Part shown: positions 3,207-23,354 of the stretch, piece after piece
Layout of the letters: the number at the start of each line of letters is the position of its first letter
How positions within the stretch are numbered: position 1 is the first letter of the stretch
Virus record (IMG/VR): IMGVR_UViG_3300017728_000062
Coordinates: 1-30,493 of that record
Direction: 5' to 3' (one strand)
Length of the DNA: 30,493 nucleotides
DNA from: a virus
Position numbers and translations under genes: made by a program
Notes under the pieces: generated by a model
The model's database searches: none
What the model was told of the DNA's origin: nothing
What the model saw: only the letters and a program-made list of their open reading frames with translations

Positions 3207-3207
3207 C

Positions 3208-3240
3208 CTTAGGGCGACAACCCTAAGTATTTTACTTAGG
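3208..3240 (-). promoter_or_regulatory. Two mutually exclusive hairpins at the epimerase stop codon
   Basis: On the minus-strand RNA, CCUAAGUA (3240-3233) pairs with UACUUAGG (3229-3222) around an AAA loop; the UAA stop of the epimerase gene straddles the 5' arm and the loop. Alternatively CUUAGGG (3227-3221) pairs with CCCUAAG (3214-3208) around UUGUCG. Both structures use the same CUUAGG bases, so only one can form at a time. A ribosome at the stop codon would favour the second. No U-run follows, so a simple Rho-independent terminator is unlikely. Confidence 0.5.
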
Positions 3241-4474: not shown

Positions 4475-4732
4475 CTAGCTTAGATATTTAACTTGTATAT
4501 CAATTATTTTGTGTATTGTTATATTCTCTACTTTACCATCCCAGAAAATGGTCATTCCGGTGGGTCTAAGACCATCTTTAAGAGATAATCCTACTAATAA
4601 GCAATTTTCATATTTCTTTGGTTTATTATAATATGAATAATCAATAATTACACTTATCATTTTGCCAATATCATTTTTGTCTAAATAAAAGTCTTGATTT
4701 AACCTTATAAAGTCGCTGTTTATTTTCGTCAT
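4475..4732 (-). CDS. Small beta-rich protein, possible paralogue cluster member
   Basis: The protein has 85 residues. Its core reads DIGKMISVIIDYSYY, then YENCLLVGLSLKDG, then MTIFWDGKVENITIHKIIDIQV. This is a series of short strands closing with a D-hydrophobic-x-V end, like a small SH3-like barrel. The same order (opening strand pair, NCLLhhh strand, short loop, LhhhxxxG, Dhh) appears in the next gene upstream and, less clearly, at 1023-1253 and 4931-5137. It overlaps the upstream gene by 4 nt. No catalytic residues are evident. Function is unknown. Confidence 0.6.
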   Translation of the reverse strand: MTKINSDFIRLNQDFYLDKNDIGKMISVIIDYSYYNKPKKYENCLLVGLSLKDGLRPTGMTIFWDGKVENITIHKIIDIQVKYLS

Positions 4733-6695: not shown

Positions 6696-6737
6696 TGTTT
6701 TACATTAGAGATTGTTGTTTGTAGCTGTTTTACATTA
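6696..6737. repeat. 12-bp direct repeat
   Basis: TGTTTTACATTA occurs at 6696-6707 and again at 6726-6737, 30 bp apart start to start, in the gap between the ThyX-like and deoxyribosyltransferase genes; the second copy covers the ThyX-like stop codon. On the minus strand it reads TAATGTAAAACA, containing the TGTAAA core seen in the promoter-like motifs, but no good -10 follows. It may be a regulator site or AT-rich chance. Confidence 0.4.
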
Positions 6738-7733: not shown

Positions 7734-7762
7734 ATTTTAATATTAAAAATTAAAATTTACAC
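7734..7762 (-). promoter_or_regulatory. Promoter-like motif GTGTAA-17-TAAAAT upstream of the ThyX paralogue
   Basis: On the minus strand GTGTAA (7762-7757, in context TGTGTAAA) is followed after 17 bp by TAAAAT (7739-7734), 5 of 6 matches to a sigma70 -10. Transcription would begin near 7727, about 20 bp before the TTG start. The upstream element matches those at 10173-10178, 19671-19676 and 23349-23354. Confidence 0.55.
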
Positions 7763-7764
7763 AT

Positions 7765-8415
7765 TTATGTTTTATTAATCTGATTTCTTAGCTGGATTAA
7801 AAGTTCTTTGTCTTTATGTGAAGCATTTAAAGTTTTCAATACATCAGAAAAACTGACTTTTTTTAAAATGCAAGTAGTCATAACATATTCGTATAAAGAA
7901 TCGATGTCAGCTTGGATTGCATCTTTCTTTTCTATATCTAGATGTAAAATGTTTTTATTAACGACAAATTGCAGTTCTTTAGCTAGAACGCAAAAAAGTG
8001 AGGTCTTGAATTTATTTAAATCTTTAATTTTTAAATTCGAAGATATTGAACATTCTATAAATCCTTCATCACTTTTATGTTTTTTATCATAATAAAAATT
8101 ACAATTTAAAACTTCAAAATAAAAATTTTTAAAAGTATCAATTAAATTTAAAGTAATGTCACACATAAAATCGTAGCATATAAGCAAAGAGTGGTTAAAG
8201 TTAACATCATAGGTTTTATTAAATATGTTTTTAAAGCTCGAGGTCGCTGTCATTTGTAAAATGTCAGACTCTATATTGATTGTAATGTTTCCATTGTTTA
8301 TCATTCCTGTAATATAAATCAAATCAAATTCAATAATTCGCCATATGTTGTCAAGATAGTAATAAGACCTAAAGTTATTGTTTTTATATAATTCTAGATC
8401 TTCGTGGAAAAACAT
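7765..8415 (-). CDS. Unknown protein, 216 residues
   Basis: I do not recognise this protein. It is rich in Asn, Phe, Tyr and Lys and looks soluble and alpha/beta, with no signal peptide or clear membrane helix. The N-terminal two thirds alternate short strands (WRIIEFDLIYITGMINNGNITINIESDILQ); the C-terminal third looks helical (KDAIQADIDSLYEYV...SFSDVLKTLNASHKDKELLIQLRNQ). It lies between the all-alpha dUTPase-like gene and the promoter of the ThyX paralogue, so it is probably the last gene of the transcript starting before the canonical ThyX. No function is proposed. Confidence 0.65.
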   Translation of the reverse strand: MFFHEDLELYKNNNFRSYYYLDNIWRIIEFDLIYITGMINNGNITINIESDILQMTATSSFKNIFNKTYDVNFNHSLLICYDFMCDITLNLIDTFKNFYFEVLNCNFYYDKKHKSDEGFIECSISSNLKIKDLNKFKTSLFCVLAKELQFVVNKNILHLDIEKKDAIQADIDSLYEYVMTTCILKKVSFSDVLKTLNASHKDKELLIQLRNQINKT

Positions 8416-8429
8416 GTTACACCTTTAGA

Positions 8430-8804
8430 TTAATACCCTTTTGTTAACCTTTCTTTAATTATCTCGTCTTTCTTTTTAAATGCATTGTAAAATTCGTCAA
8501 CGTCTACACCTATTAAAATAATAAGAGAATAAAAATAATTAAAAGCATCGACAATTTCTTCTAAAAACTCTTCTCTATTGATTTCTGGCATTTCTGTTTC
8601 TCTATGTGGCTTCCAGTTTTTTAAATGTCCAAGTGCTTCAAACATTTCTTCTACACCTTTAAGAGCTGTTTCACGCAGTAAAGCTTGACTACTTTTACTT
8701 GAAATATCTACTGGCCAAGATGGATATGAATCTTTATATTTTTCTTTGATTAAATGCATAAAGACTTCTCTTTTTTCAAAGATTTCGTCTAATCTATCTT
8801 GCAT
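8430..8804 (-). CDS. All-alpha NTP pyrophosphohydrolase, dimeric dUTPase/MazG-like
   Basis: The 124-residue helical protein carries the metal-binding pattern of the all-alpha NTP pyrophosphatase superfamily: E53-x-x-E56 in VEEMFEALGHL and E83-x-x-D86 in LEEIVDAFNYF, with a preceding ETALKG helix. The spacing and the DAFNYF segment resemble dimeric dUTPase-like enzymes more than MazG. The likely reaction is dUTP (or dUDP) to dUMP and phosphate or pyrophosphate, feeding ThyX next door. It would be a second, unrelated dUTPase beside the trimeric one at 14718-15203. It could also act on another dNTP. It follows the 72-residue gene by 3 bp. Confidence 0.78.
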   Translation of the reverse strand: MQDRLDEIFEKREVFMHLIKEKYKDSYPSWPVDISSKSSQALLRETALKGVEEMFEALGHLKNWKPHRETEMPEINREEFLEEIVDAFNYFYSLIILIGVDVDEFYNAFKKKDEIIKERLTKGY

Positions 8805-8807
8805 GTT

Positions 8808-9026
8808 TTAACTTTCTGTCTCAAAATTAGATTCTTGCGATGCGTCTACCATTTTTTCAACTTGCTCGTTAAATATTTTTTCATACTCACTGTTTAAAAT
8901 TACCTTATTGTTTTCATTTACTTCCATCTGCATCATTCTTAAATGATCAACAATGTCTGTTCCTGTTAATAGCGCCATCTGTATAAGCTTGACAATTTGC
9001 GCAATTGCTGTATCGTCTAAATTCAT
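8808..9026 (-). CDS. Small unknown helical protein
   Basis: The 72-residue protein is predicted by eye to be helical: DDTAIAQIVKLIQMALLTGTDIVDHLRMMQMEV, then EYEKIFNEQVEKMVDASQ, ending in an acidic, polar tail. It has no membrane segment and no known motif. It sits between the ferredoxin-like unknown and the dUTPase-like enzyme with gaps of only 8 and 3 bp, so it is co-transcribed with nucleotide enzymes. Function is unknown. Confidence 0.6.
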   Translation of the reverse strand: MNLDDTAIAQIVKLIQMALLTGTDIVDHLRMMQMEVNENNKVILNSEYEKIFNEQVEKMVDASQESNFETES

Positions 9027-9034
9027 TTTTTCTC

Positions 9035-9394
9035 CTAAATTATTATGGGTCTTTTCTTTAAATTTCTATCTATAACTTGATCGTCATGTTCCATTACTTT
9101 AATCATATCTACTCCTTCTATCTTCTTAAGTGACTTAATCATATCTAAAAAAGGTTTTTTTGTTTCAATAAATGTAGGTATATAAGAAACGTTAAGCTCA
9201 ATTAGTCTGTGCCCGTATGAAGAAACGACTTCTGATATTGGTCGTGTTTGCCTGACAGTTACAACTCCCGGGAGTGCTCTCATGTCTGTCATAATGTCTA
9301 AAACAGTTGGATCTTCTCTTTCTTCGATTTTTATTCTACATCTCACCAAGGTGTTAACTAAGTCAGAATGTCTTTCTAGTATTAAGTTTTTCAT
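9035..9394 (-). CDS. Unknown protein with ferredoxin-like (ACT/EF1B-like) pattern
   Basis: In this 119-residue protein, the order RCRIKIEE-(helix)-TDMRALPGVVTVRQTRP-LIELNVSYIP-(helix)-KSLKKIEGVDMIKVMEHD suggests a beta-alpha-beta-beta-alpha-beta ferredoxin-like fold, such as that of ACT or EF1B-type domains: a strand, a helix ending in LPGV, then further strands. That is a fold-level guess from pattern only; no ligand-binding motif is seen. It lies just downstream of the canonical ThyX gene, with an AGAAGGAG Shine-Dalgarno before its ATG. Function is unknown. Confidence 0.6.
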   Translation of the reverse strand: MKNLILERHSDLVNTLVRCRIKIEEREDPTVLDIMTDMRALPGVVTVRQTRPISEVVSSYGHRLIELNVSYIPTFIETKKPFLDMIKSLKKIEGVDMIKVMEHDDQVIDRNLKKRPIII

Positions 9395-9418
9395 ATAATT
9401 CTCCTTCTATTATAATAA

Positions 9419-10123
9419 CTATTTATTATTGAGAATATAACTTTCTACTGTAACTGGCCAAAGTTTCTGAATAATCTCGAGCATTTTGTTGGCCAATGCT
9501 TGAATTTCTAGCTGTGATCCTTCATGAGTTCTAAGCTTAATAAATTTTAAAATATTATTTAGATTAGCAGTCGCATAATATTCTGTATATAGACTTTGAG
9601 GAAGAATCATTCTTGCTTGCTCGCGAGCAATACCTTTGTTGATCATATCATAATATAATTTGACAGAGTTTTGTACATGGTAATCTACAGCTTCATTGCA
9701 TAGTCTACTTTCAAGTAAAACAGGATAAGAATCCATTTGCGGATTAATTTGATTATCTATGTTAGATGCTTGTCTATTAGACTTATGCTGTGTTCTATAA
9801 GAATTAGGAATATAAAATTCCATATTTACATCTGTATATCGGCGCGATATTTCATTATAAGACCACGTCCTGTGCCTATGGTGTTGTGATCTAACAAATA
9901 AAGGAACTTTTATTCTAAATGTAGCAATATTATGCTCTAAAGTAGAAGTATGTTGATGATCAATTAAATAATTGATTAGCTTTTTGTCTTTACTGTCTAG
10001 TGTTTCTTTCTGAACTCCAAAAGAAACACGAGCAGAATTAACAACAGTAATATCGTTACCCATATGTTGTACTAGCTCTATTTTACCAATATTGTCTTCG
10101 TAAAGATAATGTGTATTTGTCAT
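9419..10123 (-). CDS. thyX: Flavin-dependent thymidylate synthase
   Basis: The 234-residue protein has the family length and the intact signature R83-H84-R85-TWSYNEI-S93 (RHRx7S), preceded by STLEHNIATFRIKVPLFVRSQ. A later AREQARMILPQSLYTEYYATANLNNILKFIKLR leads to R198 and SQLEI, the dUMP/FAD-binding region. ThyX makes dTMP from dUMP using methylenetetrahydrofolate, FAD and NADPH. It lets the phage supply dTTP independently of a host ThyA. Two dUTPase-type enzymes and ribonucleotide reductase in this window supply its substrate. A promoter-like motif lies at 10150-10178, followed by AAAAGG ahead of the ATG. Confidence 0.95.
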   Translation of the reverse strand: MTNTHYLYEDNIGKIELVQHMGNDITVVNSARVSFGVQKETLDSKDKKLINYLIDHQHTSTLEHNIATFRIKVPLFVRSQHHRHRTWSYNEISRRYTDVNMEFYIPNSYRTQHKSNRQASNIDNQINPQMDSYPVLLESRLCNEAVDYHVQNSVKLYYDMINKGIAREQARMILPQSLYTEYYATANLNNILKFIKLRTHEGSQLEIQALANKMLEIIQKLWPVTVESYILNNK

Positions 10124-10149
10124 ATAAAACCTTTTATTTAATAATATTG

Positions 10150-10178
10150 ATTATATTAAATTTCGGAATGATTTACAC
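10150..10178 (-). promoter_or_regulatory. Promoter-like motif GTGTAA-17-TATAAT upstream of thyX
   Basis: On the minus strand GTGTAA (10178-10173, context CGTGTAAAT) is followed after exactly 17 bp by a perfect TATAAT (10155-10150). The start point would be near 10143, about 20 bp before the thyX ATG. It lies in the 77-bp gap after the endolysin stop. It is one of the best matches to the motif repeated in this window. Confidence 0.65.
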
Positions 10179-10200
10179 GAATATTAAAAATAAATTAAAA

Positions 10201-10995
10201 TTAAACTATATCTTTATCAATGCCGTAATAAAGTTTTTCTGCCCAAGGAATAACATCCCATTTTTTTGCTGAAATGTTGTGGTGACCTACTACACTATAT
10301 TTCGAAGCTTCGGCAACCGGCATTACATCTAAGATTTCACATACTGGCTTGTTCTGTAGGCCTGTTGATTCTCTTAAAGATTTCAAAAACTGCCGACAAA
10401 CATCTGCAAAGTCATCGCCAATCATTATAAGCTTACGACCTCTAACTCTGCGATCAGGTATTTTACAAACTTGAAGTGATGAATCTGGGTACCAGACTTT
10501 AGTTTTTTCCCAATACTTGTCGTCTGGATGCATGCAAATATCAATACCAATAGAGTGCTTATTAAACTTTCCTGCGTGATATGCCACAAGCCCTGTGTCT
10601 AAACATTGTAGTATTTCATATTCATTAGTTTTATGATTTCTGCCAATTAAAAAGTGTGAAGAAACATGTCTTCCTCTTGCGAGATTAAATACATTGTAAC
10701 AATGCCTCGTATTTAGACCACCCCAATGAACACATATCGTAGAAGGATCTGCTTTTCTTTTATACCAGTTCTTAGTGCCGTCATCTAGCTCATAAAGTGA
10801 TGCTGACCAGTCGACCTCTAATGGCGAATCAATAGGAACAACTTTTCCCATGTGCATCATAATAGGCATTCCGTAATAATTCCTTACAGCTCTATGTGTA
10901 TTTGGTCCATAAACTCCGTCTGCCTTGACTCCGACTTCTTGCTGGAGTGAAATTACGTAGTCCTTATTTTTATTTAAAGTTTTAAATTGTTCCAT
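10201..10995 (-). CDS. Endolysin: peptidoglycan-binding domain plus N-acetylmuramoyl-L-alanine amidase
   Basis: In this 264-residue protein, residues about 10-42 match a PG_binding_1 repeat (VISLQQEVGVKADGVYG, then THRAVRNYYG). Residues about 85-255 form an Amidase_2 domain: H90 in TICVHWGG, SSHFLIGR, YHAGKFNKHSIGIDI, and GHHN...W with H238 or H239 and D247. H90, one of the later histidines, and D247 (in place of the Cys of T7 lysozyme) would bind zinc. It cuts the amide bond between N-acetylmuramic acid and L-alanine, releasing progeny at lysis. There is no signal peptide, so a holin (not identified here) is probably needed. It follows the ClpP-like gene by 11 bp, probably on one transcript. 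Confidence 0.9.
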   Translation of the reverse strand: MEQFKTLNKNKDYVISLQQEVGVKADGVYGPNTHRAVRNYYGMPIMMHMGKVVPIDSPLEVDWSASLYELDDGTKNWYKRKADPSTICVHWGGLNTRHCYNVFNLARGRHVSSHFLIGRNHKTNEYEILQCLDTGLVAYHAGKFNKHSIGIDICMHPDDKYWEKTKVWYPDSSLQVCKIPDRRVRGRKLIMIGDDFADVCRQFLKSLRESTGLQNKPVCEILDVMPVAEASKYSVVGHHNISAKKWDVIPWAEKLYYGIDKDIV

Positions 10996-11006
10996 AATGT
11001 TTTTCC

Positions 11007-11612
11007 TTAGTCTAGTTCAATAGCAACTGTGACCTTTCCTTTTAACGAAGGAATTCTTAACTGTTGCACTATATTATGTTCTTTTGCTTCTTCAGCTTCT
11101 AAAAACCAATCGGCATGACCTTTGTCATGTATAAGATCTAAAAAGTAATTATCAGCTTTTCCGCAATTTCTTGCCATCATTGTATATAACTTTTTATTAA
11201 GTCGTTCAGCTTCTCTTGCGTCAGCTTTTAATTCTTCAACTTTACCAAATGCCATAGTTGAGACGTCATGAATCATTAAGATTGCATCTTTATCCATAAA
11301 GCGAAGTCCTTCTTCGCCAAAAGAAGCAAACAAAGCGCCGCAAGACATTGCCTTACCTTTGATTATTGTAGCAACTGGGACTTTTGATGATTTTAAAGAT
11401 GCTATCATTGACAATAAAGAATAAGCCTCGCCTCCGTAAGAATCAATGACTATAGGAACTACGCTTTGGCCAGTATTTTGAGCGGCGCTTATTAGGGTTG
11501 CAAATTCATTTGCAGACTCTTCATCAAACTTATTAACTGTAATAATTACTGGGTCGCTTCTAAGCTCAATTTCTTTAATTAGCGGTGACACGTCTGCAAT
11601 AAAATTAATCAT
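11007..11612 (-). CDS. ClpP-like serine protease
   Basis: The 201-residue protein matches the ClpP/crotonase fold. The oligopeptide-binding strand is IVIDSYGGEAYSLLSMI; the catalytic Ser is S90 in KGKAMSCGALFAS, His is H115 in ILMIHDVS, and Asp is D168 in GHADWFLEAEEAKEHNIV. All three triad residues are in place. Some phage ClpP-like proteins are prohead proteases, but this gene sits with the endolysin and thioredoxin, not with head genes. A role in remodelling host proteolysis, or a head protease placed away from its partners, both remain possible. A promoter-like motif precedes it at 11638-11665. Confidence 0.9.
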   Translation of the reverse strand: MINFIADVSPLIKEIELRSDPVIITVNKFDEESANEFATLISAAQNTGQSVVPIVIDSYGGEAYSLLSMIASLKSSKVPVATIIKGKAMSCGALFASFGEEGLRFMDKDAILMIHDVSTMAFGKVEELKADAREAERLNKKLYTMMARNCGKADNYFLDLIHDKGHADWFLEAEEAKEHNIVQQLRIPSLKGKVTVAIELD

Positions 11613-11637
11613 AAATAACCTTTCTTTTGTTTTTAAT

Positions 11638-11665
11638 ATTATATTAAGAATTTTTTAATTTACAT
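11638..11665 (-). promoter_or_regulatory. Weaker promoter-like motif ATGTAA-16-TATAAT upstream of the ClpP-like gene
   Basis: On the minus strand ATGTAA (11665-11660) precedes a perfect TATAAT (11643-11638) by 16 bp. The upstream element differs by one base from GTGTAA and overlaps the thioredoxin stop codon. Transcription would start near 11631, about 20 bp before the ClpP-like ATG. Confidence 0.4.
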
Positions 11666-11902
11666 TTTACGGAGATAATCAATTGTTGTAGCTCCAATTT
11701 TTCTTGATACTTCCGTTCCATTTTCTAAAACTACAAAAGTAGGCACGTTCATAATTTGATGCTTTGTTGCTAATTCAATGTCTTCAGATATGTCAATTAT
11801 TTTTAAATTAATTTCTTCTCGAATACTTTCGCTAAGCGTCATTTTTATCTGGCTACAAGGGCCGCACCACGGCGCGCTAAAAAACAGTATTTCTCTATTC
11901 AT
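11660..11902 (-). CDS. Thioredoxin-like protein
   Basis: The 80-residue mini-thioredoxin has the active site WC13GPC16 (FFSAPWCGPCSQIK), then the cis-proline NVPTF and a GATT segment. It is shorter than E. coli thioredoxin (about 109) and nearer the size of glutaredoxins, lacking the first beta-alpha unit. It probably reduces the ribonucleotide reductase encoded just upstream (NrdB is 13 bp away), whose NrdA C-terminus carries the matching CxxC pair. Confidence 0.92.
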   Translation of the reverse strand: MNREILFFSAPWCGPCSQIKMTLSESIREEINLKIIDISEDIELATKHQIMNVPTFVVLENGTEVSRKIGATTIDYLRKM

Positions 11903-11915
11903 AATATTCCTTCTT

Positions 11916-12881
11916 TTAGTTTAATAATTCCCATCCCCAGTTATCACCACTCATGCCATCTGCATTATAGTCTGTAACAGTTCCTTCAAAAAAGTTTTTA
12001 AAGCTGTCGCCATTAATAATCCAGTCAAGCCAGTCCAGAGGATTGTTTTTTACTTTAAAATTAGGTTTTAGTCCTAATTGTATTAGCCTTCTATCCGCAA
12101 GATAGCGAATATATTGCTTTACTTCTTCTTTTTCTAAACCTTTAATGTGACCCATTTCGTATGCCAGATCAATAACTTTGTCTTCTAAGTGAACAGCCTG
12201 ACGATACATTTTATAAATTGACTTTTTAAATTCGTCGTTTACAATTCTCGGATGCTCTTTGACGTATTCTCTAAAGAGCTGCGTCATTCCTTGAACATGC
12301 ATTGTCTCATCTCTAATGCTCCACTCAACTATTTCGCACATTCCTTTCATTTTGCCGTATCTCTGGTAGTTTAGAAGCATAACAAAAGCTGAAAATAGAC
12401 TCATTCCTTCATTACATGCAGACTGTGCTAGTGCAATCCCAAGACCTTTCTTGGTGCTTACATCATTTTGTTGCATAAATTCAATTTTATTGCTCATTTC
12501 TTTATACTCTAAAAAAGCACCATACTCTTCTTCAGGTAATCCTAACGTATCATTAAGAAGAGCATAACTACGTTGATGAGTGCCTTCCCGGTTTGCAAAG
12601 CTTAATAGCATACTCCTGATTTCATTGTTTTTGAACTTAGGAATAAACAGATCACAATAATTACCTCCTACTTGTACGTCACTTTGTGTAAACAAACGAA
12701 GTATTTGCGTAATGTGATTTTTTTCTTCTGTAGAAATCTTGCCACCTTTCCACTGGTTTACGTCTTCAGCTAGCTTTGCTTCCCAACTGCCCCAGTGAAT
12801 TTTTTCGTGACTTTCTGCAATTTCCATTGCCCATGCGTATTTAAAGGGCTTGTATGTTGTGTTATATTTAAGTAGTGACAT
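11916..12881 (-). CDS. nrdB: Class Ia ribonucleotide reductase, beta (radical) subunit
   Basis: In this 321-residue protein all iron ligands are visible with the spacing of E. coli NrdB: D68, E99, H102, E158, E192 and H195, with the radical tyrosine at Y106 (FANREGTHQRSY). The C-terminal NWGWELLN provides the tail that docks into the alpha subunit, with a penultimate hydrophobic stretch. The subunit makes the tyrosyl radical used by NrdA to reduce ribonucleoside diphosphates. It lies 34 bp after nrdA and 13 bp before the thioredoxin gene, so the three act as one unit. Confidence 0.95.
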   Translation of the reverse strand: MSLLKYNTTYKPFKYAWAMEIAESHEKIHWGSWEAKLAEDVNQWKGGKISTEEKNHITQILRLFTQSDVQVGGNYCDLFIPKFKNNEIRSMLLSFANREGTHQRSYALLNDTLGLPEEEYGAFLEYKEMSNKIEFMQQNDVSTKKGLGIALAQSACNEGMSLFSAFVMLLNYQRYGKMKGMCEIVEWSIRDETMHVQGMTQLFREYVKEHPRIVNDEFKKSIYKMYRQAVHLEDKVIDLAYEMGHIKGLEKEEVKQYIRYLADRRLIQLGLKPNFKVKNNPLDWLDWIINGDSFKNFFEGTVTDYNADGMSGDNWGWELLN

Positions 12882-12915
12882 TGTTCAACCTTTGTTAAAT
12901 CTTTGTATAATATAA

Positions 12916-14703: not shown

Positions 14704-14717
14704 ATATATTCCTTTAT

Positions 14718-15203
14718 TTAATCTGAACTACCAATCTTCCCATGATTTCTCTGAGAAGATGTTGTAATGTTTAAATATTCTTCTTTGTCTACAATAGAGA
14801 ATTGATTGTCACATTTAACAACAACAATTTGAACGGGTAATTTTACATTTGAGTCTAATATAAATTCTTCTGAACCTACGTTAACTAAATTAACAAAAAC
14901 TTCACCTGTATACCCGCAGTCAATAACACCTGCTCTTACTTTAAGTGGTGTCTTTGTAATTGATCCTCTTTCTTGAATAAGCGCAACGTAACCTTTAGGC
15001 ACTTGCATTTTCAAACCGGTTGGAATTAATGTTTTACTGTTTTTGGGCAAGACTGATTGTGGGCAAATCGTTGCTTTATTTCCTGCGTTGTATAGATCGA
15101 GACCTGCACTTTCTCCATTATATGCAGGAGAGTAATCTTCTACAGCTATTTTATTTGTCCCTAAAGTAAACTTTAAACTTTCCATTAAAAAAATATTAAC
15201 CAT
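14718..15203 (-). CDS. dut: Trimeric dUTPase
   Basis: The 161-residue protein shows the five dUTPase motifs in order: ESAGLDLYNA (motif 1), QERGSITKTPL (2), RAGVIDCGYTGEV (3, with the catalytic Asp and uracil-binding Tyr), VNLVNVGSE (4) and QRNHGKIGSS (5). Motif 5 departs from the usual RGxxGFGSTG but keeps the layout. It turns dUTP into dUMP, protecting DNA from uracil and feeding ThyX. The ATG at 15203 overlaps the helicase end by 8 nt and has AGAGGT upstream; a second ATG at 15185 lacks a ribosome site. Confidence 0.92.
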   Translation of the reverse strand: MVNIFLMESLKFTLGTNKIAVEDYSPAYNGESAGLDLYNAGNKATICPQSVLPKNSKTLIPTGLKMQVPKGYVALIQERGSITKTPLKVRAGVIDCGYTGEVFVNLVNVGSEEFILDSNVKLPVQIVVVKCDNQFSIVDKEEYLNITTSSQRNHGKIGSSD

Positions 15204-16572
15204 CTTTTTGATTTACCTCTTTCCACTTTTCTCTTAATTTTTCTTTCATTGTGTTATTGTCTTGAGCGACTGCTTCATTCAATGACATTTCAGTATCATC
15301 AAGAATTTCAAATTTTGATTTAGCTGTGTCTATGTTTATTGGAAATAACAATCCATCTCTTCCAGCACGATTCTTAGCTACAAATATTCGACCTCCGCCT
15401 GTAGACTTTTCCATTGGCTTACGACTTATCGATAAAACTACGTCTGCAACTTGTGCCTTACCATAAGACTCACCTAGATTTTCTAAGCCTACAACGTCAG
15501 ACTTTGAAGAATCTTTGTTCGCTTGTGAAGCAGTCCAAATAGGTATTTGCAATTCCACAGCAAGATTTCTTAATTCTGTATAAATCAACTTTAACTCGTG
15601 TCTTAAAGAATCGTATGCTTTAGAAGACTTCATTACGTCAGCATAGTCAACAGTCACCAAACTAGGTTTAAAACCTTTTAGTGTAAGCTTTTCAATATGA
15701 TTTCTTAATGTCATAACTGAAGCTGAACCTGTTGGGTACTCTTTTATAATAAGCTTTCCTAACTCCATTTTTTTGTATTTATTAACTACTTCAAGTTTTC
15801 TTTCAATAATCTCGTTACTTGGTATATCACAAAGATTTGAATCATACCTCTTGCCTGTGTCATGTTCTGATAGTTCGAATGTATAGTGTATTACATTTTT
15901 GCCAGCTCTCATAGCTGCACATCCCATTGCAACTAAGAAGTGTGATTTACCTACGCCTGTGTTTGCTGCAATGACACCTAGCTCACCTCTTCCTAGACCT
16001 CCTCTAAGTATATCTTGAGAGTCAATCTTGTCTAAACCAGTCGGACAAACTTGCCTGTTTATTTGAACAAATCTTGCTTCAATGTCATCAAAGAAATTAT
16101 GACCTGCTGTGTTAGGCATACCAACAGAAATAGCTTCTTTCATAATTTTTAAGACTGATTCATACTTTTCTGTTTGAATTAGTTCAACACTTTGTTCTAA
16201 TGCATCTCTAAATGCTTGACGTTTGCAGAATTCAAGAGACTTATCTTTTACATATTGCAAGTCGCCCATATCAGGATTAGTCTTCATTCGATGAAGGTAC
16301 GCAATAATTTGATCTCTTAACACATGATCTTTTGATTTTGATAAATCTTCTTTAATGATTGTGATAAGAATTGTTAGCGTTGGAAATGTCTTGTATTTAT
16401 TATAATAAGAATAGTATCTTTCGCAAAGAAAAGAAAGATACTTTAAATCAAAATAGTCGTGACTCATTACCTCAATCATTTGAGCTGACCAGTTTATATC
16501 TGTAAGCATGCTTTGGAAGACTTTTTCCTGAAATGGCTTACCAAACTTAGAAAAGTTTTTGTTTTGACTCAT
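15196..16572 (-). CDS. Replicative DNA helicase, DnaB/gp41 family
   Basis: The 458-residue protein has an N-terminal helical domain (about 1-150) followed by a RecA-like motor. The motor includes GGLGRGELGVIAANTGVGKS (Walker A near 204-210), LVTVDYADVMK (Walker B), IPIWTASQANK and a C-terminal FVAKNRAGRDG with the arginine-finger region. It would form a hexamer and unwind the fork 5' to 3'. It overlaps the exonuclease gene by 4 nt and sits in the replication operon. The length matches T4 gp41 (about 475). A separate primase is not seen in this window. Confidence 0.92.
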   Translation of the reverse strand: MSQNKNFSKFGKPFQEKVFQSMLTDINWSAQMIEVMSHDYFDLKYLSFLCERYYSYYNKYKTFPTLTILITIIKEDLSKSKDHVLRDQIIAYLHRMKTNPDMGDLQYVKDKSLEFCKRQAFRDALEQSVELIQTEKYESVLKIMKEAISVGMPNTAGHNFFDDIEARFVQINRQVCPTGLDKIDSQDILRGGLGRGELGVIAANTGVGKSHFLVAMGCAAMRAGKNVIHYTFELSEHDTGKRYDSNLCDIPSNEIIERKLEVVNKYKKMELGKLIIKEYPTGSASVMTLRNHIEKLTLKGFKPSLVTVDYADVMKSSKAYDSLRHELKLIYTELRNLAVELQIPIWTASQANKDSSKSDVVGLENLGESYGKAQVADVVLSISRKPMEKSTGGGRIFVAKNRAGRDGLLFPINIDTAKSKFEILDDTEMSLNEAVAQDNNTMKEKLREKWKEVNQKDG

Positions 16573-17540
16573 TGAATTTTGTTCCTTAGAGATGATTTAA
16601 GTGCAATTAAAAATGTGTGAATATTAAAAAAGTTTAAGCCTTCACGATTCATAATTTTAAGAAGATTCATTTTGTTAATGCTCGACTCTTTATTGTCATA
16701 TTGATGATTGATTTTTTTAATTTGATCAGCACTTAACATAGCAGAGTCTAAATACATTAATTTCCAGTTTTTATGTAATAGTAATTTGTTATTTATTATA
16801 TTCTCATAAAGTTTTATTTTACACTTTAAGTTAACTTTTTTACTTGATTCATTAATTATATCACTTATTGACATTTCTTTTTGCTGTGTTAATTCTGGAA
16901 ATCGTTTGACCATGGTTTTTATACCAGCACCTTTTATACCTTTAATACCGTCGCTAGTGTCGCCTGCAAAGCATCTTACTAAACAAAAGTTATATGCTGG
17001 TACGCTCCACTTGTCTAATACATATTTTTTATCAATCAGTATTTTCTTGTTAGGCGACCAAATTTTTGTATTTTCATCTAAAAGTTGATAGTAGTCTTTG
17101 TCAGAGGTAACAATTATTTTTTCATGATCAACATTTTTAGTCTTAGTTAGATATGAAATAACATCATCAGCTTCGCAATCACTAACATAGATTTGTGTTA
17201 CTGGAGTTTCGTATAATATTTCAATAAGTATTTTAAGTTGATTGTTTCTGTTCTCAGAAGTATCAGGTATATCGCTATAATAAGAACTTCTATTAAGTCT
17301 GACTGGTCGCCTGCCATTTTTATAGTCAGGATCAATACTTCTTCGTCTTAAAGAACCTCCACCTTCCCACGCAACTACGATTTTTTGAGGATTAAACTTG
17401 GCTGATAAATGCTCTATGTTACGCAAAAACCCAACAATGGCTCCACATAAATTACCGTTAAGAGACTTTGTTGGGTTTGCTGCAAAGTGTCGCATAAAAA
17501 CATTCAAGCCGTCAATATAGATAACAGGCTTGTTGCTCAT
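16569..17540 (-). CDS. 5'-3' exonuclease, FEN/RNase H (T4 Rnh-like)
   Basis: The 323-residue protein has acidic metal-binding residues in YIDGLNVFMRHF (D10), VAWEGG, VSDCEADDVISYL and VTSDKDYYQL, then a helix-hairpin-helix in FAGDTSDGIKGIKGAGIKT. These are the standard blocks of PIN/FEN-type 5' nucleases. It would remove RNA primers from lagging-strand fragments, as T4 Rnh does, and fits between the RecA and helicase genes. It could also supply the 5' nuclease missing from the small DNA polymerase at 22258-23319. Confidence 0.92.
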   Translation of the reverse strand: MSNKPVIYIDGLNVFMRHFAANPTKSLNGNLCGAIVGFLRNIEHLSAKFNPQKIVVAWEGGGSLRRRSIDPDYKNGRRPVRLNRSSYYSDIPDTSENRNNQLKILIEILYETPVTQIYVSDCEADDVISYLTKTKNVDHEKIIVTSDKDYYQLLDENTKIWSPNKKILIDKKYVLDKWSVPAYNFCLVRCFAGDTSDGIKGIKGAGIKTMVKRFPELTQQKEMSISDIINESSKKVNLKCKIKLYENIINNKLLLHKNWKLMYLDSAMLSADQIKKINHQYDNKESSINKMNLLKIMNREGLNFFNIHTFLIALKSSLRNKIQ

Positions 17541-17547
17541 TATACTC

Positions 17548-18747
17548 CTATTTTAACATTTCAAAAGCTTCAGAGTGTTCTTCCATAATATGATCATGAA
17601 CAGCTTTAATGTCTGTATAGCTTTCTGTATCAATCTCAGGATCTCCAGTCTCATTTTTACGAATCATAGCTTTTTCAAGAATCATATCAACATATTGACC
17701 AAATTCAGGATGAAAAATTATTTGATCAAAGTCTGCCTTGTAGAATTTCTTATCTACAATAACTTCACCTGTATCTAAAGTAGAAACTATTAAGTTTTTC
17801 CATGCACCGTTACCAGATATTTCAATATGATAGTTATCGATTTCTTCTGGCCCGTGCTTTCTTAACAGATCAAACATCTGTTCATGCTCTTTAATACCTT
17901 TACCAAAATGTATCTCAAAGTTACATGTTCTAAAAGGCGCTGATACTTTGTTTTTGATTATCTTTGCAGAGACATTAATACCAATCGGCTCTTTTTCTTT
18001 GTTTACAATTTGAGAACCTGCCCCAAGTTTAATCCTAACAGAGCTGTGAAAAGGTATTGCCATACCACCTGGCGTAGTTGTAGGGTCACCGTACATTACA
18101 CCAACTTTTGTTCTGATTTGATTTAAACAAACCATTAGAACTTTTTCATTAGCAATAACGCCTGTAATCTTTCGCATACCTTTTGATATCGCGCGGGCTT
18201 GAAGCCCTATACTCTCCTTATCATAGTCACCTACTAGCTCTGCTTTAGGACTAGTTGCTGCAACGGAGTCCCATATAATAGTAACTGGGACATCCTTGTC
18301 CATTGCTTTAGCTTTGATAATAGTAGACTCTGCGATAGAAAGCACTTCTTCTGTGCAGTGTGTGTCTACGTAGACAAATCTTTTTGATATGTCAACCCCT
18401 AGTATTCTAAGATTCTCTACAGAAGTAGCGTTTTCTGTGTCAATATAAACAACTATTCCACCCATTTTTTGTGTAGATCTAGCTATTTGAGTTGCAATGT
18501 GTGACTTACCAATAGAAGGAGGACCAAATATTTCTACAATTCTACCTTCTGGTAAACCTCCACTTTTTTGGTTTGAGATGATATAGTCTAATTGTTTAGA
18601 ACCTGTACTTATCCATCTTTTGACATGTGTAGGAGACTCATCTGTGCTTAGATTGTAAGCTACTCTAGCGCCTCTTTCTTTATTTAAAGACTTAATTAAG
18701 TCAGAAGTAAAGTCGTCTAACTCTTCTTTTTTTTTAGATTTAGCCAT
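17548..18747 (-). CDS. recA: RecA/UvsX-type recombinase
   Basis: In this 399-residue protein, the ATPase core has G75-PPSIGK81-S82 (Walker A), VTIIWDSVAATSPKAEL (Walker B and loop L1 region) and VCLNQIRTKVGVMYGDPTTTPGGMAIPFHSS (the QIR...PGG segment and loop L2). This sequence looks closer to bacterial RecA than to T4 UvsX in these blocks. It would coat ssDNA and pair homologous strands, starting recombination-dependent replication and repair. It is 21 bp downstream of the ssDNA-binding protein gene and 7 bp upstream of the exonuclease gene. The symbol marks the family; UvsX would be the T4 equivalent. Confidence 0.93.
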   Translation of the reverse strand: MAKSKKKEELDDFTSDLIKSLNKERGARVAYNLSTDESPTHVKRWISTGSKQLDYIISNQKSGGLPEGRIVEIFGPPSIGKSHIATQIARSTQKMGGIVVYIDTENATSVENLRILGVDISKRFVYVDTHCTEEVLSIAESTIIKAKAMDKDVPVTIIWDSVAATSPKAELVGDYDKESIGLQARAISKGMRKITGVIANEKVLMVCLNQIRTKVGVMYGDPTTTPGGMAIPFHSSVRIKLGAGSQIVNKEKEPIGINVSAKIIKNKVSAPFRTCNFEIHFGKGIKEHEQMFDLLRKHGPEEIDNYHIEISGNGAWKNLIVSTLDTGEVIVDKKFYKADFDQIIFHPEFGQYVDMILEKAMIRKNETGDPEIDTESYTDIKAVHDHIMEEHSEAFEMLK

Positions 18748-18768
18748 TATGATCGTTAACTTTCTTTG

Positions 18769-19557
18769 TTATAGTGAGTCCAAGTCGGCAAATGCGTCAT
18801 CAAGGCTTTTATATTTCCCGTTAATTGCATCAGGAGAATTGTCATCAACTTGAGTTGTCTTTTGATTAAATCCTCCACGAGTTGTTTCTTTAACTTCTTC
18901 TTCGTCACCATTTAACCATTCGTTAATGATTCTTTCTAAGTCTTCATAAGTCTTGAGTTCAAATAAATTGTTAACGTCTGGAATGTTATCTAGCCACTGC
19001 TTTGACTTTGATGAGTCTTCTGAAAGAGGGGAATCTTTTCCTCGAGGCCTCACATCAGTTGTTGCCCATTGCTGTCCTGGATTTTTTTGACAACTAATAC
19101 GAACATCACGACCTTCATGTGGGTCTGTAATGTCACCGTAATCTTCATCAAGCATGTAGTTCAAAAGTGTTTGATAAACAGTCTTTCCAAATGCCCATAA
19201 ACGCACACCTTTTTCTTCTTCGCCTCTTACAACAACTGGAGCATAACAACGCATCTTTGGGTATAACTTTTTTGCTAGCTCATATGATTCTTTTGAACCT
19301 TCATCACGAAGCTTTGTAATAAGCTCTTGGATAGGATCTGGCTTGTCAAATTGATAAGGTGCTAAAAGACCAGGATTATTGCCAATGTTGTAATAGAACA
19401 TTAGCTCTTTAAATGGTTGACCGTCATTATTAGGGTATGCCATAAGACGAACAGTAGTCTCAGCACCTTCTTCAGGTCGCCACATAGTATTCTTCTTTGA
19501 GTTTTGTCCACTGAGTTGTCCAAGTTTCTTGCGGATTGCTGCTAGATCAATAGCCAT
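18769..19557 (-). CDS. Single-stranded DNA-binding protein, T4 gp32-like
   Basis: The 262-residue protein has a basic N-terminal stretch (MAIDLAAIRKKLGQL...KK), an OB-fold-like middle with aromatic residues (FKELMFYYNIG, MRCYAPVVVRGEEEKGVRLWAFGKTVYQTL), and an acidic tail ending DDAFADLDSL. That order (cooperativity region, OB core, acidic protein-interaction tail) is the gp32 plan. No clear zinc-binding Cys/His set is seen, unlike T4 gp32. It is the first gene of the replication/nucleotide transcript, with a strong promoter-like motif 90 bp upstream and AAAGGT before the ATG. Confidence 0.88.
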   Translation of the reverse strand: MAIDLAAIRKKLGQLSGQNSKKNTMWRPEEGAETTVRLMAYPNNDGQPFKELMFYYNIGNNPGLLAPYQFDKPDPIQELITKLRDEGSKESYELAKKLYPKMRCYAPVVVRGEEEKGVRLWAFGKTVYQTLLNYMLDEDYGDITDPHEGRDVRISCQKNPGQQWATTDVRPRGKDSPLSEDSSKSKQWLDNIPDVNNLFELKTYEDLERIINEWLNGDEEEVKETTRGGFNQKTTQVDDNSPDAINGKYKSLDDAFADLDSL

Positions 19558-19629
19558 ATTGTTTAATACCTTTCATAGTATTTGTTTAAATTTTTAATTG
19601 GTTATTTGTTATTTTTTTAATTTGTTTTG

Positions 19630-19644
19630 ATCACCAATTGTGAT
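19630..19644. promoter_or_regulatory. Dyad ATCAC-N5-GTGAT at the presumed transcription start
   Basis: ATCAC (19630-19634) and GTGAT (19640-19644) are an exact 5-bp inverted repeat separated by CAATT. It falls about 4-18 bp downstream of the -10 hexamer of the promoter before the ssDNA-binding protein gene, the usual place for an operator. It may also be a short RNA hairpin. At this length chance cannot be excluded. Confidence 0.35.
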
Positions 19645-19647
19645 ACC

Positions 19648-19676
19648 ATTATATTATATATTTTTAATTTTTACAC
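19648..19676 (-). promoter_or_regulatory. Promoter-like motif GTGTAA-17-TATAAT of the replication operon
   Basis: On the minus strand GTGTAA (19676-19671, context TGTGTAAAA) is followed after 17 bp by a perfect TATAAT (19653-19648). A second overlapping reading, TTGATG (19681-19676) with 17 bp to another TATAAT (19658-19653), is a sigma70-type option, but the GTGTAA form is shared with other sites. It is in the largest gap of the window (148 bp, 19558-19705), which otherwise holds only AT-rich sequence and a small dyad. Confidence 0.65.
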
Positions 19677-19705
19677 ATCAAATTTATTTATTTTTATATC
19701 TTTTC

Positions 19706-21355
19706 TCAACTAAGCTTTTTAGCTTTTTCTTGAGCTTTCTTCTCAGCTTTTAACCTTTTAATTTCTTCTATTTTAAGGCATAAGTCATTAAATGCTTGAG
19801 TTATAATTGCAATATTTTCATTGTTATAGTTATCGCCTGGCTCGACAATGCGCCAAGCTCTTTTGTTTCTTACAACTCCTAACATTGTTTTCATTATCTT
19901 AGAAGCTAAGCTTTTATTTGGATTGTTTAACAAGTCAACAATATCACTTGTAAATTCATAAAAACTTTCAGGTGTAAAGAAGACTCTTAGTTTAGTCCTA
20001 AGGTTCATGCTACCAATCGTCACTGCGTAGTTTAAAGTATTGTATCCTGATGAGTTTTTTCTTATTTGATCACTTGAATCTAAAGTTACATCCTGTAGTT
20101 TTATTGCTTCAGCAACTTCAAACAAGCTTTGAGAAGCTGATCTTAGGTCGATAGCTCCATACTCAAATGATGATGCAAATGGACTTTGGATTCGTTGTAA
20201 GTCTCCATACTTTGGATTAGGTATCTTAAATCCTATTTGATCTTTAATAGAAACAAAAAGACCTTCAAAAGGAGAACTAGGTGCAATCAAAGATCCACTT
20301 AATGAAGTCATAAGTAATTCAGTTAACTGTGGTTTTATGTTTTCTAAAACAAACTGTTTAAAAGATCCCGTCGAATGACTTTGAATTTCCTGTTTTAAAG
20401 AAGAAAGTATATCAATATATTCCTGAGTTATTTCAGGAAATCTTTTTGCTTGATTTGGTCCCATAAAATAAATATTGTATTCTGGATTTGTCATTGCTTT
20501 TGCATCTTCTTCAGTAAATTCTCCTGAGTATACAACTGCGTATTCTTTTCTGCCAGGTATACTGTATGATATATAATCGCCTTTTCTATCATCTGATTTA
20601 AGTGATTCAACGCCAAAGTATTTATAAGTTCCTTCTGGCATTTTGTGTGGGTAAGAATATTTAAAAGAATTGTATATACTTCTAGAAGCTCCGGATCTAT
20701 TTAAAAATAAATACCAATTGTATCCTGCACGTCTTCGATGGCTAGATTTTTTAAACTCATCGTATGTATGTAAGTCGCTGTATTTTGTTTTCATAATGTC
20801 AACATTAGTTACTGGTAGACCTTTTTTTAATCTATCAGACTTTTCTTTATCAAAAGATTTTTTTGTCGCAATAAAAATCTGTGGGCCTGTGTTTATAGTT
20901 TTGTTTGTCTTTTTATCTTTTTTATAACCATCTGGTCCAATCAAAACTGAAACGTGTTGTCCACTAAACTTTTCTGTCATACTTATTTGATAGCCTTCAA
21001 CAGCATTACCTAACATATGCTCTATAAAAGCTAAGATCTGATCTTTAGAAAGATTTTCTAGTTGTGGTGTTTTTTTTGATTCAAACAAAAAAGAATAATT
21101 TTCTTTTAGTGTCCTCTTTCTACCTTTTTCTCCGCCATTCTTAAGATACCACTGAACAGATCTTGTATAAGTCTTTTTCTTTTTACCTTTTGATCTATGC
21201 TTTTTATCTGTTGCAGTAGACTTTTTGTACATATTTTTTCCTTGAGAACCAGCTTTTGGTCCTGTTCCTAAAGGTGTTACTACTCCACCAATACCTCCAG
21301 CTACGCTAAATTCTCTAACTAGTGCTTCTAAAACTTTATTATAAATATCTTGCAT
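19706..21355 (-). CDS. Ligase-like nucleotidyltransferase, putative
   Basis: The protein has 549 residues. The N-terminal 90 or so are basic and low in complexity (KKHRSKGKKKKTYTR). From about residue 120 the pattern resembles DNA/RNA ligases: ISMTE128-K129-F-S-G132 as motif I with the Lys to be adenylated, IFIATKK, YFGVESLKSD as motif III-like, PFEGLFVSI near 363 as motif IV and GFKIPNP near 376 as motif V. T4-like marine phages carry large unknown proteins with an EKxxGQ block of this kind, as I recall. The DNA or RNA substrate cannot be told, and activity is unproven. It ends in a Lys/Glu-rich helix. It closes the operon that starts with the small polymerase. Confidence 0.55.
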   Translation of the reverse strand: MQDIYNKVLEALVREFSVAGGIGGVVTPLGTGPKAGSQGKNMYKKSTATDKKHRSKGKKKKTYTRSVQWYLKNGGEKGRKRTLKENYSFLFESKKTPQLENLSKDQILAFIEHMLGNAVEGYQISMTEKFSGQHVSVLIGPDGYKKDKKTNKTINTGPQIFIATKKSFDKEKSDRLKKGLPVTNVDIMKTKYSDLHTYDEFKKSSHRRRAGYNWYLFLNRSGASRSIYNSFKYSYPHKMPEGTYKYFGVESLKSDDRKGDYISYSIPGRKEYAVVYSGEFTEEDAKAMTNPEYNIYFMGPNQAKRFPEITQEYIDILSSLKQEIQSHSTGSFKQFVLENIKPQLTELLMTSLSGSLIAPSSPFEGLFVSIKDQIGFKIPNPKYGDLQRIQSPFASSFEYGAIDLRSASQSLFEVAEAIKLQDVTLDSSDQIRKNSSGYNTLNYAVTIGSMNLRTKLRVFFTPESFYEFTSDIVDLLNNPNKSLASKIMKTMLGVVRNKRAWRIVEPGDNYNNENIAIITQAFNDLCLKIEEIKRLKAEKKAQEKAKKLS

Positions 21356-21385
21356 AATATACCTCTTTAATACATTATATATTTA

Positions 21386-21991
21386 TCAAAAAGGCACTTT
21401 ATATATTCCTAAAATTTTATCTCTTTCATCTTTCATGACTGACTCGTGAGCCATTTGCATTATTAAAGAGAGTCTAGATTTATGTGCACTGTAAAATTTG
21501 CTGTCTTCAGAAGTCATATCTTTTAATAGCGATAGTGCTTCCCACTCTTGCCAAGACAAATTAACATTGTGGCGTTGCAAAATAAATAGCGTCATATCAT
21601 TTACTTGATATTTTGGGCATGATTCATTCCAATCGTAATATTGACCTAGCTTTTCTTTATGCCATTCAGACTCACACTCAACGTATCTATCTTGTGTTGC
21701 ATTACCTACTCTGCCTAAGATAGACAATAAAGAACATTTAATAATAGACGTTGGATTTGTATCATAATTAAGAGCCTTTAAAATATTGTTTGAAGCTTTT
21801 GCTAATTCTAAAGAATACTCAACCAATCCTCCAATTCCACAAAACGGCTCTTTTTCTCTCTGAGAAAAAGAAGACATAATTATTCTTTGATCCCATTTGC
21901 TTATTAAATTATCCACGTTTTCATCGTTTAGTTTACTTAATAAATTACTATACTTGTTCCATAAAGTTTCAACGTCACGTTCTTTATACAT
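21386..21991 (-). CDS. Degenerate HD-domain protein
   Basis: The 201-residue protein follows a phage HD-domain layout: GGLVEYS, then a long helix, then CSLLSILGRVGNAT, then ESEWHKEKLGQYYDWNE, then LFILQRHNVNLSWQEWEALSLLKD. In active relatives the two blocks read GGLxEHS and LLHDLGKVG. Here the first His is Tyr59 and the HD pair is Ser90-Ile91, so the metal site appears lost. It is therefore probably a structural or regulatory pseudoenzyme. It lies between the 82-residue gene and the ligase-like gene with short gaps. What it binds is unknown. Confidence 0.6.
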   Translation of the reverse strand: MYKERDVETLWNKYSNLLSKLNDENVDNLISKWDQRIIMSSFSQREKEPFCGIGGLVEYSLELAKASNNILKALNYDTNPTSIIKCSLLSILGRVGNATQDRYVECESEWHKEKLGQYYDWNESCPKYQVNDMTLFILQRHNVNLSWQEWEALSLLKDMTSEDSKFYSAHKSRLSLIMQMAHESVMKDERDKILGIYKVPF

Positions 21992-21999
21992 TTATTTCC

Positions 22000-22248
22000 T
22001 TATAATTTCCATTCAATTCCCGTAAGGTCTTGAAATTTCTTGGTAAAAAATTTTTTCTGATCTGCAAGTTCTAAAACTCTATCTAAAGAGTTTTCTTTAT
22101 ATAGAGATTCTCTAAGTTTTTTTGATGCATCTAAAAGATTTTGAAATGTTTCTAACTGAATTCTCTCACCTGATAATTCTGCTTCGATATCATTACCAAC
22201 TATATAGTTAGCTGCAACTTGGTGTAAAAAACTACTTTTATTTTTCAT
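22000..22248 (-). CDS. Small unknown helical protein
   Basis: The 82-residue protein looks largely helical: FLHQVAANYIVGNDIEAEL, then IQLETFQNLLDASKKLRESLYKENSLDRVLELADQKKFFTKKFQDLTG. Its heptad-like Leu spacing could allow a short coiled coil. There is no membrane segment and no named motif. It lies directly after the polymerase gene (9-bp gap) and before the HD-like gene (8 bp), so it may be a partner of either. Function is unknown. Confidence 0.6.
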   Translation of the reverse strand: MKNKSSFLHQVAANYIVGNDIEAELSGERIQLETFQNLLDASKKLRESLYKENSLDRVLELADQKKFFTKKFQDLTGIEWKL

Positions 22249-22257
22249 AATATACCT

Positions 22258-23319
22258 TCAAATAAAGTCTTCTATGCTAAGAGGAAAATATCCTAGACCT
22301 TTTTCTAAATATCCTTTATCTATTATAATGTTCAACTCTTTTATGTAGTCATTATTTACATCAAAAATAATTGCATCATGCAAAACATAAAGCGGTTTAC
22401 ATAAGTTTTTGTCAATTATGCTAGACAATTCTGAAAAACATTTTAAAGATATATCTACTGCAGTTGATTGTATGTAATTATTTACTATTATGTTTTCTTT
22501 TATTTCTTTGATATTATGTAAAGGTCTTCCAAAATAGTTTCTTCTAAACGAATTATTCTTTTTACTTTCAGCAATGTTTAAAAGCTTTGAAATATTAAAA
22601 TAACTTTTTAACATATTGAATACTTCTTCAGACCTAGCGCGTGTCAAGTCTGCTAAGTTATTACTTTTTGCTCCGTATAGAATAGAAATAACTGCTCTTT
22701 TAATAACTGATCTATCTACGTTAAACGATACCTTGTCTCTAAAGTATTCGTATATGTCTTCGTTGTTACTTTTATCAAGAAGATGTAATGCAAGACGAGG
22801 TTCTAGATTACAAAAGTCGACTGATACTATCTTGCCATTTAGAAAAGAAGATTTTAATATGTTTCTACACCTTTTAGGCAATGTTAGTATTCTTGGGCCT
22901 TCTTTTACAGTTAATCTTCCTGTTACTGTATTGTTTGTATACTCTATTTTGCTTGCAAAACTATTTACTGGCTTGAAAGATTTAATTGACGACTTCACTG
23001 TTTCATTATTTTCTATTTCAAGAAAAGCTTTGTAAGCTAAAATATCAATTTTAGGCTCTACGAGATTATTAAGAAAATTTTCATATAAATCATACCTTTT
23101 CAAGAAGTTAAAGTCTTTATCTAAATCATCTAGTCTATCTTTAACTGAATTAATATCATTATAAAATTCTTCTAAAAAATGATCAGGTAAAATAGACTGC
23201 CAATCTAAACTTTTTATTTCTTTTTTAAGAAATTTTAGATTTAATCTATAGAGTCTTGGTAAGTCTAAATTATAAATCTTTGCAAAATTAATTGTTTTAT
23301 TTATATCTTTTATATTCAT
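22258..23319 (-). CDS. Minimal family A DNA polymerase
   Basis: The 353-residue protein holds the family A polymerase blocks: T133-GRL (before motif A), D168 in VSVDFCNLEPRLALHLL (motif A), R203 and K207 to Y215-G216 in DRSVIKRAVISILYG (motif B/O helix), FGRPLHNI, NYIQSTAVDISLKC, and H314-D315-A316 in VLHDAIIFDV (motif C). Both catalytic aspartates are present; motif C has Ala where most have Glu. There is no 3'-5' or 5'-3' exonuclease domain, and residues 1-130 would be a reduced thumb. E. coli Pol I is 928 residues and its polymerase part about 400. It may be a repair or gap-filling enzyme or one half of a split replicase. No Shine-Dalgarno is visible; the promoter predicts a near-leaderless message. 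Confidence 0.85.
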   Translation of the reverse strand: MNIKDINKTINFAKIYNLDLPRLYRLNLKFLKKEIKSLDWQSILPDHFLEEFYNDINSVKDRLDDLDKDFNFLKRYDLYENFLNNLVEPKIDILAYKAFLEIENNETVKSSIKSFKPVNSFASKIEYTNNTVTGRLTVKEGPRILTLPKRCRNILKSSFLNGKIVSVDFCNLEPRLALHLLDKSNNEDIYEYFRDKVSFNVDRSVIKRAVISILYGAKSNNLADLTRARSEEVFNMLKSYFNISKLLNIAESKKNNSFRRNYFGRPLHNIKEIKENIIVNNYIQSTAVDISLKCFSELSSIIDKNLCKPLYVLHDAIIFDVNNDYIKELNIIIDKGYLEKGLGYFPLSIEDFI

Positions 23320-23325
23320 ATTTAA

Positions 23326-23354
23326 ATATTAAAAACAAACAATATAATTTACAC
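23326..23354 (-). promoter_or_regulatory. Promoter-like motif GTGTAA-17-TAATAT upstream of the polymerase gene
   Basis: On the minus strand GTGTAA (23354-23349, context CGTGTAAAT, as before thyX) is followed after 17 bp by TAATAT (23331-23326), 4 of 6 matches to a -10. The predicted start point is close to the ATG at 23319, so the message would have almost no leader. The -10 is the weakest of the four strong motif sites. Confidence 0.45.

Follow-up and report, generated by a model that had tools for sequence, protein, structure and literature searches.

A GTGTAA-TATAAT promoter signal across a clade of uncultured T4-superfamily-like phages, and a sigma factor in two pieces as its candidate reader

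What reads a phage promoter that pairs the familiar -10 box of sigma70 with an upstream box of GTGTAA, and could a sigma factor divided between two phage proteins be that reader? The question arises from a 30,493-bp viral sequence of 32% GC, IMG/VR record IMGVR_UViG_3300017728_000062 (hereafter the window, meaning this whole stretch of DNA), in which an earlier, sequence-only reading had reported GTGTAA at a fixed distance from -10-like hexamers in front of several genes. The gene content of the window is of T4-superfamily type, including UvsX/RecA, gp32, a DnaB-like helicase, an exonuclease and a baseplate subunit, and further genes encode ThyX and a paralogue of it, a family-A polymerase-like protein (polA-like) and ClpP. 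The closest UvsX match in a search of 50,697 phage records had 37% identity, indicating that no cultured phage is near, and a 1540-amino-acid protein of the window had no match among phage records. Uncultured contigs near the window are numerous, with UvsX identities of up to 96%. We read 19 related contigs of up to 306 kb whole, using our own simple gene calls; most are fragments. Hosts suggested by metagenome-assembled genomes that bear relatives (Halobacteriovorax, Methylococcaceae, Bacteroidota and Miltoncostaeales) were rejected, the binning being judged unreliable.

A check of the sequence agreed with the four principal sites that had been reported, all on the minus strand and each exactly 17 bp from its -10-like hexamer, and a weaker fifth site, with ATGTAA and a 16-bp spacer, was likewise present (Table 1). 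The same reading held that other GTGTAA occurrences lacked a matching -10 box, which proved incorrect: two further minus-strand sites, before dnaB and gene 4215-4466, have TATAAT. Matches on the plus strand at 4453 and 12686 look like background. The motif count that had been suggested for the window and its relatives, scored against shuffled intergenic DNA, came out far above the shuffles. GTGTAA-N16-18-TAnnnT occurs 8 times in the window compared with 1.49 times in shuffles (0 of 100 reached 8), and the intergenic DNA of the window has five sense and no antisense sites where 0.04 were expected (0 of 1000 dinucleotide shuffles). The 19 related contigs contain 101 sense sites, against 1.95 expected in shuffles. 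Chance matches in AT-rich DNA might be suspected in a window of this composition, where TATAAT is common between genes, but that explanation is already refuted by these counts, by the conservation of orthologous sites, and by a relative of 46% GC (G028) with 24 exact sites, where the reversed-pattern control had none. Relatives of 44-54% GC together have 19 sites versus 0.18 expected, and AT-richness is therefore no explanation there.

The spacing between the two boxes peaks only at 17-18 bp. Across 80 related loci, TATAAT followed TGTAA at 17 bp in 73 cases and at 18 bp in 29, with 0-10 cases at each other spacing from 8 to 29 bp. TTGAC had no such peak in these loci, and TTGACA promoters were not in excess in the relatives, in agreement with the earlier statement that the -35 box is not the TTGACA of sigma70; TTG-like variants (TTGTAA) do occur. 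A gapped-word search without prior expectation put parts of the motif at the top of the ranking for G004, G005, G013 and G028, and in a tie for the top in G033. The layout is thus the bipartite one of sigma70-type promoters, a TATAAT -10 box with a second box 16-18 bp upstream, and the consensus of the 101 sites is GTGTAAAT-N15/16-TATAATA. As far as sequence can tell, GTGTAA-TATAAT is a securely predicted, genome-wide phage promoter signal of the whole clade. One relative of 143 kb (G008), which has no motif site above 13 bits, does not fit.

The signal recurs every few hundred bases in clusters that appear early-like (G004, 206-239 kb; G013, 88-122 kb; G028, 1-18 kb; G033, 1-15 kb), and the genes downstream of it in the G004 cluster are small open reading frames, as in immediate-early regions. 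Replication genes are also preceded by it, as is the sigma gene described below in G001 and G004. In many relatives, gp32, thyX and its paralogue, dnaB and the polA-like gene have upstream sites whose distance from the gene is conserved. In front of the polA-like gene, the -10 box lies only 6 nucleotides from the ATG (window positions 23320-23331), and relatives keep this distance, from which a conserved leaderless mRNA is predicted. The base that follows GTGTAA differs by gene class in G013 and G028, being mostly C, T or G in early-like clusters and A elsewhere (A at 2 of 25 early-like sites versus 7 of 8 others in G013, and at 2 of 18 versus 4 of 4 in G028); this split is weak in G004. It is possible that the difference reflects two readers or a strength code. 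We take GTGTAAAT-N15/16-TATAATA to be the probable early/middle promoter in a clade of T4-superfamily-like phages that are large, uncultured and mostly marine, with timing classes that are putative.

Relatives encode a sigma70-like protein of about 235-260 amino acids comprising regions 1.2, 2, 3 and 4.1. Its representative in G001 has Pfam matches to sigma70 regions 1.2, 2 and 3, and the AlphaFold model of this large protein has a mean confidence score (pLDDT) of 81. In 43 of 44 homologues the chain stops shortly beyond LRFG, with which region 4.1 ends, and a conserved FPxTxEM tail is frequent; the protein is therefore a truncated sigma without region 4.2, the helix that reads the -35 box. 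It was not found in G002, G003, G008, G009, G011, G012 or the window, all of which are fragments and hence uninformative, and neither of the sigma genes discussed here lies within the window. Six-frame searches of G000-G012 for a frameshift that would restore region 4.2 gave no 4.2-like frame other than a stand-alone gene in G004. A virus-encoded polymerase was also set aside, as the 19 contigs had no match to an RNA polymerase beta subunit. As a separate observation, L091:10671-14246 and L092:12015-13652 in G001 encode a DnaE-type polymerase and a GroEL-like protein (judged by eye), and in relatives the GroEL-like gene lies two genes or fewer upstream of the sigma gene.

Region 4.2 is instead encoded by a stand-alone gene of 75-119 amino acids, whose product consists of this region only, behind a Cys-rich N-terminus with four conserved cysteines. 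It was seen first in G004, then in G013 and G024 (in all three at the same location, divergent from a PhoH-like gene), and then in at least 242 viral contigs, with the consensus TCFxxH...C....CRYW......NC....TLQEIGDxFGITRMR[IV]CQIEK. The protein matches Sigma70_r4 with an E-value of 8e-10 over profile positions 18-50, and its PDB matches are SigA region 4 chains. AlphaFold predicts a helix-turn-helix at residues 55-86 (helices 55-62 and 66-86; mean pLDDT 86). A Foldseek search with this model placed sigma region 4 at the top of the list, with no match below an E-value of 0.001, and it is therefore the sequence matches that carry the region-4.2 identity. Another candidate, a 334-amino-acid protein of G010 and G007 with a region-4-like helix, was dropped because its homologues lack the helix. 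Substitutions of E585 and R588 in Escherichia coli sigma70 loosen specificity at -33, and R584 has an effect at -31 (PMC2613000). The phage helix keeps the equivalents of R584 and Q589, and has M in place of E585 and C in place of R588, while the fused sigma of an outlier genome, G022, retains RERIRQ. Aligned with a 17-bp spacer, the motif still has G at -33; reading it one base over (TGTAAA, 16 bp) would put T there. The changed equivalents of E585 and R588 are suggestive of a link to GTGTAA reading, but not a tight one.

The sigma70 profile is tiled almost exactly by the two proteins. Positions 501-692 of the phrog_351 profile are matched by the large protein and 693-726 by the small one, and RpoD/SigA profiles and PDB sequences give the same join between the pieces. 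Eleven of the 13 contigs of at least 187 kb with the truncated sigma also have the separate 4.2 gene, and the two without it, at about 202 kb, may be incomplete. G022 (427 kb), with its full-length sigma, has neither a separate 4.2 gene nor a motif excess. We consider the best-supported reader of the motif to be the host core polymerase equipped with a two-piece phage sigma, and we hold this to be probable, if only modestly so. The large piece (regions 1.2, 2, 3 and 4.1) would read TATAAT, and the small piece, with its Cys-rich N-terminus and re-specified 4.2 helix-turn-helix, would read GTGTAA in place of TTGACA, both pieces presumably acting together on the host core polymerase.

Several points weigh against a two-piece sigma as the reader. 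Contact of the 4.2 protein with GTGTAA, or with the truncated sigma, is something that we infer, and the residue changes in its helix do not correspond neatly to the new bases. The scan for 4.2 genes was partly seeded with the recognition helix, so that the apparent invariance of the helix is biased. A motif excess is lacking in G030 despite both halves and the same helix, with a TGTAAAT-like site remaining before its polA-like gene; in G029, which also has both halves, the motif has no exact match. Most of the contigs are fragments. Finally, early-like genes share the box, and transcription of early genes normally precedes any synthesis of phage proteins. A split sigma would be on hand for them only if it entered with the virion; otherwise the host sigma would have to tolerate the box.

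This last point bears on a reading in which the host sigma holoenzyme recognizes GTGTAA-N17-TATAAT, at least at early-like genes, leaving the phage pieces to a later or other class. Unmodified host polymerase is the usual reader of early phage genes, the dense early-like clusters bear the motif, and TTGTAA variants exist; the class-dependent base after GTGTAA in G013 and G028 could also mean two readers. However, GTGTAA shares only 3 of 6 positions with TTGACA, which is absent from these phages, the same motif is found in phages of 27-54% GC that probably have different hosts, and the outlier with the full-length sigma lacks the motif, so that we regard recognition by host sigma as rather unlikely. 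We also scanned 249 Pseudomonadota genomes for the motif but gave the scan no weight in testing the host, since its TTGACA control showed no excess either.

The earlier proposal of a phage factor fared better in its general form than in its particulars. Recognition by a phage factor is more likely than by plain host sigma70, but the analogy drawn with MotA at T4 middle promoters was not supported: the MotA box lies closer to the start, at about -30, whereas the box here is at the canonical -35 distance, and it also serves early-like clusters and is thus not confined to middle promoters. Many proteins of these phages have no known function, which would allow for another DNA-binding activator, MotA-like, that binds GTGTAA beside host sigma70. 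Apart from the canonical spacing, a search of 18 records for the MotA DNA-binding domain (PF09158) gave no match above the cut-off, with the weak control that the control genomes held no true positive, and the sigma region 4.2 family offers a simpler reader; we consider such an activator very improbable.

Conceivably, the 4.2 protein could instead appropriate the host factor, docking on the sigma70 holoenzyme, replacing its region 4.2 and redirecting it to GTGTAA, with the truncated sigma employed elsewhere. In its favor, the 4.2 piece amounts to a complete reading head, and G028 has this gene and the motif without a Sigma70_r2 match above the cut-off in 236 kb. There is also precedent in T4, where AsiA and MotA remodel region 4 of sigma70, according to the Hinton review as cited in PMC2613000. 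Yet G028 may be incomplete, the 4.2 protein supplies precisely the part missing from the truncated sigma, and both are found on most long contigs, all of which makes appropriation distinctly unlikely in our view. Returning to the two-piece sigma, its fullest form would be a viral primary-type sigma cut between regions 4.1 and 4.2, whose freed Cys-rich 4.2, with new GTGTAA specificity, covers all early and middle transcription in a widespread group of uncultured phages, the next base (A versus C, T or G) separating replication from early-like genes in some members. We put forward this larger proposal tentatively, as having somewhat less than an even chance of being correct.

Table 1. Sites of the GTGTAA-TATAAT signal in the window, with their counterparts in related contigs.
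Downstream gene	Promoter (strand)	-35 box	Spacer (bp)	-10 box	Context and relatives
ThyX paralogue (6735-7706)	7734-7762 (-)	GTGTAA, 7757-7762	17	TAAAAT, 7734-7739	Kept before the orthologue in G001, G002, G003, G004, G009, G013
thyX (9419-10123)	10150-10178 (-)	GTGTAA, 10173-10178	17	TATAAT, 10150-10155	Kept in G001, G003, G004, G009, G011
clpP (11007-11612); weaker promoter	11638-11665 (-)	ATGTAA, 11660-11665	16	TATAAT, 11638-11643	-35 box overlaps stop codon of upstream thioredoxin-like gene; clpP in G002 and G003 preceded by TGTAA-N17-TATAAT
dnaB (15196-16572)	16795-16824 (-)	GTGTAA	18	TATAAT	Within exonuclease-like gene, 252 bp upstream; 252-253 bp upstream in G001, G004, G013 too
gp32-like single-stranded DNA-binding protein (18769-19557)	19648-19676 (-)	GTGTAA, 19671-19676	17	TATAAT, 19648-19653	Kept in at least 10 relatives, down to 68% protein identity
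polA-like gene (22258-23319)	23326-23354 (-)	GTGTAA, 23349-23354	17	TAATAT, 23326-23331	34-36 bp before ATG in most relatives, down to 31% protein identity
Gene 4215-4466; probable promoter	4625-4653 (-)	GTGTAA	17	TATAAT	Within short open reading frame 4475-4732, 164 bp upstream; in G001, 171 bp before the orthologue

Only one of the two ThyX-family genes in Table 1 has a strong family score (E-values of 3e-50 versus 8e-18), and the weaker one may have a different function. A variant promoter class was seen in a 306-kb genome (G024:C5, L233-L248), in which GTGTAG or GTGTAA is found with an unusual -10 box, TTA[CA]ATTATATATGTAA, for example upstream of the genes starting at 145178, 162107, 180219 and 251792; here the same -35 half is joined to another -10 half.

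The T4-type late octamer TATAAATA showed no sense-strand excess in these phages. A second motif with a single box, [CG]ATA[TCA]TTA[TGA], occurs in 20 genomes upstream of 177 genes on the sense strand versus 40 on the antisense strand, mostly 30-40 bp before the gene start, with a clear case in the window at about 3198-3206 on the minus strand, before gene 2411-3181. Nine of these genomes have a gp55-like sigma, of which the one-box motif may be the late promoter. Window positions 3182-3231 contain a hairpin, whose minus-strand sequence is CTTAGGGTTGTCGCCCTAAG, with the late-like motif CATACTTAT directly after it, possibly a terminator and promoter placed back to back. The 306-kb relative seems to have its own transfer-messenger RNA (L240:11716-12106, minus strand), with the tag ANNNYHYESARLAA.

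The promoter signal provides a rule for annotating these genomes and metatranscriptomes. If the two-piece sigma is real, a phage group present in many marine samples would have a natural split sigma70 and an altered -35 code, and the modularity of -10 and -35 recognition would be directly testable. Bacterial polymerase could then be redirected with a compact switch of two proteins, and T4 gp55/gp33 would no longer be the sole split-sigma logic known in such phages. Our literature search, which did not cover subscription papers, found no phage split sigma of this kind and, in phages, no split between regions 4.1 and 4.2.

Among known systems, the arrangement resembles T4 gp55 (sigma2-like) and gp33 (a sigma4 mimic), in which phage sigma function is spread over two proteins on the host core polymerase, and a T4 review calls gp55 with gp33 a split sigma (PMC2988020). 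However, gp33 is dissimilar to sigma in sequence and recognizes no DNA sequence (PMC2988020), whereas the small piece described here is a true region 4.2 (Sigma70_r4, as above) and a -35 box is present; the large piece, unlike gp55, is a sigma70 with regions 1.2 to 4.1. The likeness to T4 middle promoters under MotA/AsiA is that a phage protein would give the host polymerase a new upstream specificity, but box position and type of reader differ. Sigma2 and sigma4 functions are likewise in separate proteins in Bacillus subtilis, where SigO carries sigma4 and RsoA carries sigma2, and the two act together (PMC8103513). In these phages, by contrast, the cut divides region 4 itself, separating 4.1 from 4.2, and the two genes are far apart. 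The nearest single-chain counterpart is the full-length phage sigma70 of phrog_351, whose profile both pieces match, differing in that the pieces cover either side of a cut at profile position 692/693.

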